Part shown: positions 5,522 through 57,517 of the stretch, piece after piece
Layout: each line of letters begins with the position of its first letter
How positions within the stretch are numbered: the first letter of the stretch is position 1
Assembly (NCBI RefSeq): GCF_029893805.1
Contig: NZ_JARXYP010000002.1
Coordinates: 2,604,001-2,668,000 of the forward strand
From: Streptomyces sp. SAI-135
GTDB taxonomy: Bacteria > Actinomycetota > Actinomycetes > Streptomycetales > Streptomycetaceae
DNA length: 64,000 nt
Direction: 5' to 3'
Made by a program: the position numbers and the translations under genes
Notes under the pieces: model-generated
Databases searched by the model: none
What the model was told of the DNA's origin: nothing
Seen by the model: the letters and a program-made list of their open reading frames with translations, nothing else

Positions 5522-5581
5522 GTACCCCACTATCACCCGAACCGGGGGCGAACGGTCACCCGGGGCTCCGTGAGAATCGCC

Positions 5582-37861: not shown

Positions 37862-39535
37862 TCAGTACCGGCGTTCCTGCTTCTGCTTGCACTCCACGCA
37901 CAGGGTCGCGCGCGGGAAGGCCTGCATGCGGGCCTTGCCGATGGGGTTGCCGCAGTTCTCGCACAGTCCGTAGGTGCCGGCGTCGAGGCGTCCGAGGGCG
38001 CGCTCGGTCTGGGTGAGCATCTCGCGCGCGTTGGCCGCGAGGGCCATCTCGCTCTCGCGCGTGATGTTCTTGGTGCCGGTGTCGGCCTGGTCGTCGCCCG
38101 CGCCGTCCCCGGAGTCCCGCATGAGCCCCACCAGGGACTCCTCGGACGTGGAGATCTCGGTGCGCAGGCGCAGTGCCTCGGCGGTCAGCTCCGCGCGGGC
38201 CTCCGCGACCTCGTCGGGCGTCCACGGATCCTCACCCGGGCGCACCGCGAGTTCTCCGGGCTCCACCGCGGCGACACGCGCGTTGGGTAGGGCGGTCTTC
38301 GCCGCTGTGGCCGTGCCAGGGGTCTTCTTCGCAACCACCGTCGTGGCTCCCGTCTGCTTCGCGGCCTCGGCCGCGCCCGCCTTGTGGGCCGTGCTCTTGC
38401 CGGCCGCCCTCTTCGTGGGGGTCTTCCTCCCGGAGGTGCCCTGCCCGGCGTCCCCCTGCGGGGCACCGGCCTCCGTGGTGACCGTCTCCCCGGCCGCGGT
38501 GTCCTTCACGGCCGTCTTCTTCCCCGCGGTTCGCGTCGCAGCCGCGCTCTTGGCCGCGCTCTTCCTGGTGACCGCCTTCTGCTTCGTGGCCGAGGTCTTC
38601 TTGCCGACGGCGGCCTTCTCCCCGGCCGTCTCCCCGGCACCCGCCGACTCCGCGCCCCTCGCCTTCCTGCCCGCCCCCTCCCCAACCGCCTTCTTGGCCG
38701 CCGCGCCCTTCCCGGCGACCAGCTCTCCGGCAGCCGACTCCGCGCTCCCGGCCTTCTTACCCGCCCGCTCGGCGACCGCAGCCGTCTCACCGACCGCCTT
38801 AGTGCCGGCCGCCTTCGTTCCTGCCGCTTTCTTGCCGGCCGCCTTCTTCGCTGTCACCGTCTTCTTGGCTGCCGCCGTCTTCTTCGCTCCCGCCGCCTGC
38901 CTCGCGACCGCCTTCTTGCCGGCCGCGCTCTTATCCGCCGCACTCTTGCCAACCGCGCTCTTGCCGGCCGCGCTCTTATCCGCCGCGCTCTCGCCGGCCG
39001 CCTTCTTGCCGGCCGTTTTCTTCGCGGCCGCGCTCTGCTTGGTGACCGAGGCCTTGCCGACGCCCTTGGTGGCCTCCGGCGCCCCGCCGACCTGCGGCTC
39101 GTCCGCCGGTCTCCCGGCCGAGGCCTCCTCCTTCGCAGCCGCCCGTCCACCGGGAGCCGCCCTGGAAGCGGCGGCCTTCCGGGCGCCACTGGTCTTCCGG
39201 GCCGCCACCTTCTTCCCCTCAGCCTTCTCGGCCCCCGCCCGCACGCCCCCGGCCTCGGCACCCGCCCGCGCGCCCTCCCGACCGGCCCCCGCGCGCGTGC
39301 TCTTCACCGCGGCCTTCTTCGCGACGCTCTTCGCCGCCGCTCCGACCGCCTTCACGGCCTTGGCCGCGACGCCCTTGCCGGAGGACGTGGCGGACGAGGA
39401 CGACGCCGACGTGCCGGACGCGACCCCGCGCGTGCTCTTCTTCCCGCCCGTGTCCTTGGCCCCGCCTCCGGAGGCACGGGCATGTGTGGACCGGCCCGAC
39501 GCCGACTGCTGTTCGGCGGTCTTCTTAGCCACCAT
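37862..39535 (-). CDS. DksA/TraR-type zinc-finger protein with a long Lys/Ala-rich tail
   Basis: A 557-residue protein. Residues 1-433 are a low-complexity tail of Lys, Ala, Gly, Ser and Thr with units such as SAAGKSA, KKAAG and TAAKK, resembling histone H1 or Hu-like tails. Residues 434-557 form a DksA/TraR domain: a coiled-coil region then a C4 zinc finger with C525, C528, C546 and C549 ([18 protein letters not shown]). DksA-like domains act on RNA polymerase; the tail suggests nucleic acid binding. AAGGGG precedes the ATG. It leads an lspA-rluD-GNAT gene run and diverges from ileS. Confidence 0.88.
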
Positions 39536-39831: not shown

Positions 39832-40125
39832 AGCGAAAAGCGTGGATGGGGACGAGTAGCGGCGTACGCAGCCCAGAGCGACCCGGGGACGGTGGAAGCC
39901 CGGGGGCGAGCGCGACGTGAAGATCACCCCGGAGCCGCCGGAAGAACCCCCAGCAGGGGGCGTAGACCCGGCATCGCGACCCCAATGAGGGGGCTCACCG
40001 ACGCACACCAGGCGTCGGCGGGCCAAGGAGGGTGGTACCGCGGGAGCGCGCCGAAACCGGCGTACGGAAAGACACGGCTCTCGTCCCTCCGGACGGAAGG
40101 CAGCACATCCGCCGGAGGAAGACTG
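39832..40125 (+). promoter_or_regulatory. T-box riboswitch, translational, isoleucine-specific
   Basis: The ileS leader carries the T-box sequence AGGGTGGTACCGCG at 40029-40042 and a likely specifier codon ATC at 39923-39925 in GTGAAGATCACC. The expression platform is readable: CCTCCGG (40086-40092) can pair with CCGGAGG (40112-40118), hiding the ribosome binding site, whereas TCCCT (40084-40088) can pair with AGGG of the T-box when uncharged tRNA-Ile binds, freeing it. This matches the translational ileS T-boxes known in Actinobacteria. GGGGACGAGTA near the 5' end is typical of T-box leaders. Confidence 0.93.
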
Positions 40126-43100
40126 ATGACGCAGTACCGCCAGGTGCCCGCCCAGGTCGACCTGCCCGCGCTCGAGCACGCGGTGCTCGACTTCTGGCGC
40201 GAGCAGAAGATCTTCGCCAAGACCCTGGAGCAGTCCGAGGGCCGCCCCGAATGGGTGTTCTACGAGGGCCCGCCCACCGCCAACGGCATGCCGGGCGCCC
40301 ACCACATCGAGGCCCGCGTCTTCAAGGACGTCTTCCCCCGCTTCCGCACCATGCGCGGCTACCACGTGGCCCGCAAGGCCGGCTGGGACTGCCACGGCCT
40401 CCCGGTGGAGCTGGCGGTCGAGAAGGAGCTCGGCTTCAGCGGCAAGAAGGACATCGAGGCGTACGGCATCGCCGAGTTCAAGCGCCAAGTGCCGCGAGTC
40501 CGTGACCCGCCACACCGACGCCTTCGAGGCGCTCACGACCCGCATGGGCTACTGGACCGACCTCCAGGACCCCTACCGCACGATGGACCCGGAGTACATC
40601 GAGTCGGTCTGGTGGTCGCTGAAGACGATCTTCGACAAGGGCCTGCTGGTCCAGGACCACCGTGTCGCCCCCTGGTGCCCGCGCTGCGGCACCGGCCTGT
40701 CCGACCACGAGCTGGCGCAGGGCTACGAGACGGTCGTGGACCCGTCCGTGTACGTCCGTTTCCCGCTCACCTCCGGTCCGCTCGCCGGCGAGGCAGCGCT
40801 CCTGGTGTGGACGACCACCCCCTGGACCCTGGTGTCCAACACGGCGGTCGCCGCGCACCCGGAGGTCACCTACGTCGTCGCCACCGACGGCGAGGAGAGG
40901 CTCGTCGTCGCCGAGCCGCTGCTCGCCAAGGCGCTCGGCGAGGGCTGGGAGACCACCGGCCAGTCCTTCACCGGCGCCGAAATGGAGCGCTGGACCTATC
41001 AACGTCCGTTCGAGCTCGTGGAGTTCCCGGAGCCGGCCCACTACGTGGTCAACGCCGAGTACGTGACGACCGAGGACGGTACCGGTCTGGTCCACCAGTC
41101 CCCCGCCTTCGGTGAGGACGACCTCAAGGTCTGCCGCGCCTACGGCCTGCCCGTGGTGAACCCGGTCCGCCCGGACGGCACCTTCGAGGAGGACGTCCCC
41201 CTCGTCGGCGGCGTCTTCTTCAAGAAGGCGGACGAAAAGCTCACCGAGGACCTCCAGCAGCGCGGCCTCCTCTTCCGGCACATCCCGTACGAGCACAGCT
41301 ACCCGCACTGCTGGCGCTGCCACACCGCGCTCCTCTACTACGCGCAGCCGTCCTGGTACATCCGCACCACCGCCGCCAAGGACCGCCTCCTCCAGGAGAA
41401 CGAGAACACCAACTGGTTCCCGGAGACCGTCAAGCACGGCCGCTTCGGCGACTGGCTCCAGAACAACATCGACTGGGCGCTGTCCCGCAACCGCTACTGG
41501 GGCACCCCGCTGCCGATCTGGCGCTGCGAGGACGACCACCTCACGGTCGTCGGGTCCCGCGCGGAGCTCACCGAGCTCACCGGCACGGACCACTCCGGCC
41601 TGGACCCGCACCGCCCGTACATCGACGCGGTCACCTTCGCCTGCCCCCAGGACAGCTGCGGAAAGACGGCCACGCGCGTGCCGGAGGTCATCGACGCCTG
41701 GTACGACTCGGGTTCGATGCCGTTCGCGCAGTGGGGCTACCCGTACAAGAACAAGGAGCTCTTCGAGTCCCGCTACCCGGCGCAGTTCATCTCCGAGGCC
41801 ATCGACCAGACCCGTGGCTGGTTCTACACGCTGATGGCCGTCGGCACCCTGGTCTTCGACAAGTCCTCGTACGAGAACGTCGTCTGCCTCGGCCACATCC
41901 TCGCCGAGGACGGCCGCAAGATGTCCAAGCACCTGGGCAACACCCTGGAGCCGATCCCGCTGATGGACCGGCACGGGGCCGACGCGGTGCGCTGGTTCAT
42001 GGCGGCCGGCGGCTCCCCCTGGGCGGCCCGCCGCGTGGGCCACGGCACCATCCAGGAGGTGGTGAGGAAGACCCTCCTCACCTACTGGAACACGGTCGCC
42101 TTCCAGGCCCTGTACGCCCGTACGTCGAACTGGGCGCCCAGCGCGGCGGACCCGGCCCCGGCCGACCGCCCGGTCCTGGACCGCTGGCTGCTGTCCGAAC
42201 TGCACGCGCTGACCGACCAGGTGACCCAGTCCCTGGAGGCGTACGACACCCAGCGCGCCGGAAAGCTCCTGTCGGCGTTCGTCGACGACCTGTCCAACTG
42301 GTACGTACGCCGCTCCCGGCGCCGTTTCTGGCAGGGCGACAAGGCCGCGCTGCGCACCCTGCACGAGGTCGTCGAGACGGTCACCAAGCTGATGGCCCCG
42401 CTGACCCCCTTCATCACCGAGCGGGTCTGGCAGGACCTGGTCGTGCCGGTCACCCCGGGCGCCCCGGAGTCGGTGCACCTGGCCTCCTGGCCGGAGGCGG
42501 ACCTGTCCGCCATCGACCCGGAGCTGTCGAAGCAGATGGTCCTGGTGCGCCGGCTCGTCGAGCTGGGTCGGGCCACGCGCGCGGAGTCGGGCGTGAAGAC
42601 CCGCCAGCCGCTGTCCCGGGCGCTCATCGCCGCCACCGGCTTCGACGCCCTGGACCGTGAACTGCACGCGCAGATCACGGAAGAGCTCAACGTGAGCGCG
42701 CTCGCCTCCCTCAGCGAGGTCGGCGGCAGCCTGGTCGACACCACCGCGAAGGCCAACTTCCGCGCCCTGGGCAAGCGGTTCGGCAAGCGCGTCCAGGACG
42801 TGGCCAAGGCCGTCGCCAACGCCGACGCGGCCGCGCTCTCCCTCGCCCTGCGCGAAGGCACGGCGTCGGTCGAGGTCGACGGCGAGACGGTCACGCTCGC
42901 CCCGGACGAGGTGATCATCACGGAGACCCCGCGCGAGGGCTGGTCGGTGGCGTCCGACTCCGGTGCCACGGTCGCCCTGGACCTGGAGATCACCGAGGAG
43001 CTGCGCCAGGCGGGCCTCGCCCGTGACGCGATCCGGCTGATCCAGGAGGCCCGCAAGAACAGCGGCCTCGACGTGGCCGACCGGATCGCGCTGCGCTGGA

Positions 43101-43264
43101 CGGCCACGGACCCGGCCGTGATCGCGGCCCTCACCGAGCACAGCGCCCTGATCGCCGACGAGGTCCTGGCGACGGACTTCGCCCAGGGAGAGGCGGACGA
43201 GACGTACGGCACCCCGTTCACGGACGAGGGCCTGTCGCTGACGTTCCGCCTGCGCAAGGCGTAG
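40126..43264 (+). CDS. ileS: isoleucyl-tRNA synthetase, broken by a +1 frameshift in this sequence
   Basis: If one base is removed, the gene encodes about 1045 residues, the usual length for Streptomyces IleS. The first 118 codons ([10 protein letters not shown] onward, with the HIGH-type motif [11 protein letters not shown] at 55-64 and [10 protein letters not shown]) are in one frame; the remainder ([14 protein letters not shown], then KMSKHLGN near residue 598) is in the next. At 40480-40489 AAGCGCCAAG should read AACGCCAAG (N-A-K), so the extra base is G40482. The type resembles the long eukaryote-like IleS class. IleS is essential, so a sequence error is likelier than true loss. It is regulated by the upstream T-box. 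Confidence 0.88.
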
Positions 43265-55860: not shown

Positions 55861-57517
55861 TCATCCCTGGGTCTTCTGGATGGCTTCTCGAAGTACCTGG
55901 CGGTCGTCGAAGGGACGGACCACCCCGGCGATGTCCTGGCCCTGCTCGTGGCCCTTGCCCGCGACGAGCACGGTGTCACCGGGCTGCGCGCGGGCGACGG
56001 CTGCGGCGATCGCGGCGGCCCGGTCCTCGAAGACCTGGACCTCGCCGCGTTCGTGTGCTGGTACGGACGCCGCGCCCTCGAGCATGGTTGCGAGGATCGC
56101 GAGGGGGTCCTCGGAGCGGGGGTTGTCGGAGGTCAGTACGGCGGTGTCGGCGAGGCGGGCCGCGGCCGCGCCCATCGGCCCGCGCTTGGTCCGGTCGCGG
56201 TCGCCGCCGCAGCCGAGCACGACGTGCACCTTGCCCTCGGTGACCTTGCGGAGCGCCTTGAGCACCGACTCGACGGCGTCGGTCTTGTGGGCGTAGTCCA
56301 CGACCGCGAGGTAGGGCTGCCCGGCGTCCACCCGCTCCAGGCGGCCCGGCACCCCCGGCACGGCGGCGACGCCGTCGGCGGCGGTCTGCGGGTCGAGGCC
56401 GGCCGCGGCCAGGGCGACGATCGCGGCGAGGGTGTTCGCCACGTTGAAGGGGCCCGCGAGCGGGGACCTGGCGGCGATGCGCTCGCCCTTGGGGCCGACC
56501 ACGGTGAACGTCGAGTCCATGGGGCCGACTTCGACGTCCTCGGCACGCCAGTCGGCGTCGGGGTGGCCCTCGGCGGAGTAGGTGACGACCGGGACCGTGG
56601 CTTCCTTGACGAGCCTGCGGCCGTACTCGTCGTCGAGGTTGACGACGCCGAGACGGCTGCGTTTCGGCGTGAACAGCTGCGCCTTGGCCCGGAAGTAGTC
56701 CTCCATGTCGGAGTGGAACTCCATGTGTTCCGGGCTGAGGTTGGTGAAGACGCCGATGTCGAAGACGCAGCCGTCGACCCGGCCGAGGACCAGCGCGTGG
56801 CTGGAGACCTCCATGGCGACCGCCTCGACACCGCGCTCGCGCATGACCGCGAACAGGGCCTGGAGGTCGGTGGCTTCGGGCGTGGTCCGCTCGGACTTGA
56901 TGCGCTCGTCGCCGATGCGCATCTCGACGGTGCCGATCAGGCCGGTGGACCTGACCCCCTTCAGGCCACCCTCGACGAGATAGGGCCGTGGTGGTCTTGC
57001 CGGAGGTGCCGGTGATCCCGATCTGGAGCAGGTCCTCGCCGGGGTGGCCGTAGATCGTGGTGGCCAGTTCGCCCATGCGCGCGCGTGGGTCCTCGACGAC
57101 CAGGACCGGGAGCCCGGTCGCGGCGGCACGCTCGGCGCCCGTCGGGTCGGTCAGCACCGAGACCGCGCCGAGGCCGACGGCCTGGGTGACGAAGTCGGCG
57201 CCGTGCAGGCGGGCGCCCGGCAGGGCGGCGTACAGGTCGCCGGGGCGGACCGCACGCGAGTCATGGGTGATGCCCGTGACCTGCGCGTCCTTCAGCGGCG
57301 GCTCGGCACCCAGCTGATCGGCGAGCTCCGCGAGGGGTGTGGCGGAGACCTGGACCGGCCGGGGCGGTCCCGGATATGTCACGGGTGCGCCCTTCTGGGT
57401 GGTTTGGGACTGATCAGCGTGTGGCACGGCGGTGAGCGTACCGGGCGCACCCGCCTCGGAGCGAAGCGAGGGGCGGGGCACGCCCTGGTTGCCGGGATCG
57501 GAGGTGATCGTCGTCAC
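55861..57517 (-). CDS. murE: UDP-MurNAc-tripeptide synthetase, broken by a +1 frameshift in this sequence
   Basis: Removing one base gives about 551 residues from GTG 57517, or about 506 from GTG 57382 (preceded by AGAAGGG). The N-terminal part ends in ITGTSGKTTTA and then runs out of frame; the rest resumes in the next frame at YLVEGGLKGVRSTGLIGTVE. On the plus strand the GGG at 56983-56985 should be GG, so that GCC TAT CTC encodes A-Y-L. DNPR in LTSDNPRSEDP indicates a diaminopimelate-adding ligase. MurE is essential; a homopolymer sequence error is the likely cause. Confidence 0.88.

Follow-up and report, generated by a model that had tools for sequence, protein, structure and literature searches.

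Gene-fragmenting indels in long-read assemblies are described as lying mostly at homopolymers, and many insertion errors are tied in the same account to no particular homopolymer (PMC12007338, Kastor). The extra base identified here in ileS of Streptomyces sp. SAI-135 resembles the cases treated in that source, being one of several one- and two-base indels that split conserved genes and were found by way of relatives; however, in the Pseudomonas syringae assemblies covered there, deletions outnumbered insertions, whereas the six clean cases in this genome (defined below) are all insertions. Among the literature matches listed, nothing was found on indel errors in Streptomyces or on a frameshifted synthetase gene. 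Frameshifting that compensates for "problem" indels forms a recognized class, the known cases of which, as given in its source, are mostly mitochondrial (PMC5009743). The ileS locus resembles this class in that a needed gene has its frame broken but differs, as far as the class is outlined there, in that the break is not conserved, no slippery site is evident, and several unrelated genes are hit. T-boxes before actinobacterial ileS are known and are thought to act on translation (PMC1262725). The gene described here likewise has a T-box directly upstream but, set against those outlined in that source, its coding frame is broken in the assembled sequence.

The window, i.e., the whole stretch of 64,000 nucleotides that was analyzed, corresponds to C2:2604001-2668000 in a genome of 10,366,972 bases assembled in two contigs. 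Within it, ileS starts at ATG 40126, and its opening residues (MTQYRQ...EAYGIAEF) are read in the normal frame through F118, whose codon (TTC, 40477-40479) is the last before the frame break. This 5' part (codons 1 to 118, M1 to F118; 40126-40479, forward strand) is followed by a site at 40480-40489 (forward strand) that, by length and alignment comparison, carries a one-base insertion relative to other genomes; alignments with genomes G009 and G007 place the extra base at 40482. Beyond F118 the starting frame gives K-R-Q-V-P-R... and runs to a stop at 41115. Read literally, the product from ATG 40126 (40126-41115, forward strand) has 329 residues, 118 from IleRS and the last 211 off-frame; the open reading frame (ORF) listed in this frame begins at an upstream GTG. 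The next frame contains the remainder of IleRS, in a 920-amino-acid ORF running from GTG 40502 to 43264 on the forward strand. This 3' part alone scored 725.6 bits against the NCBIfam ileS profile TIGR00392, above the cutoff of 621.4, and covered profile positions 124 to 851. When the whole genome was searched with this profile of 861 positions, ileS was matched in two abutting pieces, with positions 2 to 116 at C2:2644144-2644488 and positions 113 to 851 at C2:2644478-2646634. The two IleRS parts are 97% and 93% identical to the G009 protein; judged from these sequences, both are conserved and there is no sign of gene decay.

Upstream of ileS, a T-box leader (39840-40088, forward strand) was recognized from two partial matches to Rfam RF00230, at 39840-39935 and 39984-40088, with scores of 41.5 bits (E = 4.8e-8) and 17.3 bits (E = 0.079), respectively. 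Both fall below the RF00230 gathering score of 93, and no gathering-level Rfam match was found anywhere in the window. As the leader is detected in two pieces and scores far under the gathering score, it is missed by a default Rfam scan. The leader looks ordinary, and nothing unusual was found in it. Also in the window, at 37862-39535 on the reverse strand, a 557-amino-acid protein with a long, repetitive, Ala/Lys-rich N terminus is encoded. It ends in a zinc-finger-like CENCGNPI...CVEC stretch, and is likely DksA/TraR-like.

To compare the ileS site with that of relatives, a 300-base query spanning it was used, and 96 of the 100 genomes searched gave a match. All 60 same-genus genomes matched the whole of the query with 299 bases, i.e., without the extra base. 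In the 29 relatives for which the DNA was read, a single open frame passes through the site in every case, encoding F-N-A-K-C (n = 20), F-N-A-R-C (n = 6), or F-N-D-K-C (n = 3), and this frame remains open throughout the 567 codons covered to the right of the site in those 29 genomes. The frame shift was thus common to no relative among the 60 same-genus genomes searched. The exact 27-base pattern of the window was absent from the genome_contigs collection, in which the organism's own genome or very near genomes were possibly excluded. A preliminary description of this DNA had attributed a split in ileS to one extra base at 40482 and had suggested an alignment with Streptomyces ileS genes as a check; the frames, the profile pieces, and the relatives all bear out the split, and the alignment showed the extra base to be absent from each of the 60 same-genus genomes.

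That description had also named a second ileS, to be sought genome-wide, as an alternative. Searches of the whole genome with the TIGR00392 and PF00133 profiles identified no second ileS in the assembly, for which the completeness figure is 99.99%. The sole TIGR00392 match over the ileS cutoff was the 3' piece of the split gene itself. Matches to TIGR00392 outside ileS fell in frames of 877, 997, 646, and 412 codons, the best of them (192.2 bits) in the 877-codon frame, while PF00133 matches besides ileS lay in frames of 877, 997, 584, and 412 codons. Judged by their sizes, these frames are presumably valS and leuS together with further genes of the class I synthetase type. A second ileS acting as a backup was rejected, as nothing else in the genome exceeded the TIGR00392 cutoff.

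A further gene of the window, murE (55861-57517, reverse strand), is interrupted by a single additional base near 56985 and is matched by TIGR01085 in two pieces, at window positions 56984-57289 and 55879-56952. No further match in the genome reached the TIGR01085 cutoff, indicating that murE is single-copy. Of the 37 same-genus genomes searched, 36 gave a match, and in all 36 the difference in length amounted, modulo 3, to one extra base in the genome studied here. The break in murE lies approximately 16.5 kb from that in ileS, and the flanks of the two breaks are 84 to 97% identical to the G009 proteins. Bacteria require both IleRS and MurE for viability. A living cell in which ileS and murE are both broken is not credible, and an independent rescue of each gene is far less likely than a consensus error. 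As two essential single-copy genes are broken this close to one another, and as no same-genus relative searched shares the change, the extra base in ileS is read as a consensus error in this assembly, with a probability of roughly 0.96.

The same pair of genes bears on the idea that the base is a real and recent mutation carried by part of the sequenced culture, which would then have yielded mixed reads and would also have contained intact cells. Nothing speaks for this directly, apart from small insertions being present in other genes of this genome as well, and the changes in both ileS and murE, within one window, would need to have been captured in the consensus; a mixed culture is very unlikely.

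If the base were instead fixed in the organism, a shift by the ribosome or by RNA polymerase near F118 might rejoin the two frames and make whole IleRS. The abutting of the ileS frames, the conservation of both parts, and the existence of compensatory frameshifting as a described class are consistent with such a shift, but the break occurs in none of the 60 same-genus genomes, and a separate rescue would be required for murE and for every other split gene. By eye, the codons at the junction (TTC AAG CGC CAA GTG) contain no run and offer no evident +1 re-pairing. The off-frame is open for 211 codons, leaving no nearby stop that could stimulate a shift, and inspection by eye of the ileS junction, where the 0-frame is open over that distance, revealed neither a slippery sequence nor a stop or pause stimulator. 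Recoding, which the preliminary description had entertained as an alternative, accordingly finds no support, with the base present in 0 of 60 same-genus genomes and no slippery codon seen by eye, and a rescue of this kind is considered extremely unlikely.

Equally dependent on a real base is an IleRS made as two assembling proteins, one consisting of residues 1 to 118 plus the off-frame tail and the other of the 920-amino-acid rest. Shiba and Schimmel reportedly found in 1992 that Escherichia coli IleRS can function in two pieces when split at several positions, and GTG 40502 would provide a start in the right frame 20 bases after the extra base. However, no clear Shine-Dalgarno sequence was seen by eye before 40502, the N-terminal product would be burdened with 211 off-frame residues, the arrangement is common to 0 of the 60 same-genus genomes, and the split in murE would be left unexplained. 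Nothing on a split IleRS was found in the literature among the matches listed, and the likelihood of this arrangement is negligible. Taken more broadly, a real base accompanied either by an undescribed shift by which murE, polA, and clpP are rescued as well, i.e., by globally relaxed frame keeping, or by a two-piece IleRS is highly improbable.

The consensus-error reading was set against other genes of the same genome by comparing 1.2 Mb (C2:2404001-3604000) against 1.2 Mb from G009 and 0.4 Mb from G007. The queries were G009 ORFs, and the 556 genes whose top match reached at least 60% identity were taken as ortholog-like. A split was called clean where the 200 bases to each side of the junction contained exactly one frameshifting indel in total; split genes were named from their G009 orthologs or from the window's own ORFs. 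In the 1.2 Mb, 11 of the 556 genes appear split and 6 of the 556 carry a clean single frameshifting indel, a headline count from which 5 nonclean splits here and 8 in G009 were left out. The clean cases are polA (+2), ileS (+1), murE (+1), a gene for a 178-amino-acid product (+1), clpP (+1), and an ABC-2 permease gene (+1). All six are insertions, a uniformity that equal odds for both directions would produce roughly once in 32 to 64 by chance. The two extra bases that split polA, at C2:2543983, are absent from both G009 and G007. One extra base is carried by clpP at C2:3359465; an ortholog was found in 23 of 24 same-genus genomes and was one base shorter in all 23, while the 24th genome gave only 71 to 74% matches. 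The ABC-2 permease gene (C2:3502985) and the gene for the 178-amino-acid product (C2:3111490), which is without a family match, each have one extra base relative to G009, the sole comparison genome in these two cases. A base-calling error, the reading preferred in the preliminary description, is thus supported inferentially by the damage to murE, polA, clpP, the ABC-2 permease gene, and the 178-amino-acid gene.

The control genomes were not free of comparable changes. In the reverse search, in which the genome's own ORFs were compared with G009, 566 genes included 11 that looked split, 3 of them with a clean single indel, in each case a loss. The N-terminal pieces in these three G009 cases are 43 to 84 residues long and 63 to 80% identical, versus 83 to 96% for the rest of each gene, and the indels were judged, from these short and less conserved pieces, not to be gene breaks. 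G009 does have a convincing +1 insertion of its own, at G009:C1:2634012, which splits the counterpart of a 598-amino-acid gene; it failed the one-gap filter and so lies outside the clean count. The 0.4 Mb of G007 contained 1 clean case among 243 genes (G009 ORFs) and 2 among 249 (own ORFs), all losses, at least one of which, in a run of G, may be a real break. The comparable 0.4 Mb of the present genome contained three clean cases (polA, ileS, and murE).

Alternative counts were also made. An alignment of the three genomes (0.4 Mb each), in which about 304 to 311 kb of this genome was aligned and which misses murE, listed 10 indels not a multiple of 3 here, 12 in G009, and 9 in G007; of the 10 specific to this genome, only those in ileS and polA seemed, on visual inspection, to fall in coding sequence. 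When codon phase was assessed against G009 only, 148 gaps were testable, with 14 classed as broken here, 5 as broken in G009, and 129 as neither. Ten of the 14 came from two divergent spots (C2:2857711-2857748 and C2:3259107-3259229), and the others were polA, murE, the 178-amino-acid gene, and an 8-base case at C2:2573705; ileS was missed. Codon phase combined with G+C content classified 15 of 181 clean gaps, as 4 here, 4 in G009, and 7 undecided. The four assigned here were polA, the ABC-2 permease gene, a doubtful 7-base case, and a divergent site at C2:3175484, with ileS and murE both missed. The doubtful case is a 7-base excess relative to G009 at C2:2609569 (window position 5569, reverse strand), in a divergent context. 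An initial list of split genes (12 here and 18 in G009) was judged to contain many over-extended ORF starts, and the filter described above was used in its place. Overall, the excess of insertions here over the control genomes is modest and no more than suggestive. As the excess is modest and the codon-phase count stands at 4 versus 4, the argument rests on the essentiality of ileS and murE and not on a rate.

The ileS site is not a homopolymer, the commonest context of long-read errors according to the source covering them (PMC12007338), which counts against an error. It is nevertheless almost certain that the extra base arose as an ordinary error of assembly and has no biological reality, and it is inferred that the raw reads would not support it. 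Spurious insertions of one or two bases would then be thinly scattered through the coding DNA of this assembly, with ileS probably one of six genes so affected across the 1.2 Mb compared. The ileS gene of the living strain most likely runs without interruption for about 1,045 codons, preceded by a T-box leader of the ordinary kind.

If genuine, the extra base would offer a striking example of the rescue of essential genes. Read as a consensus error, its bearing is confined to data quality: broken frames in essential genes occur in an assembly with a completeness rating of 99.99%, and gene calls and pseudogene counts derived from it need to be checked against relatives.
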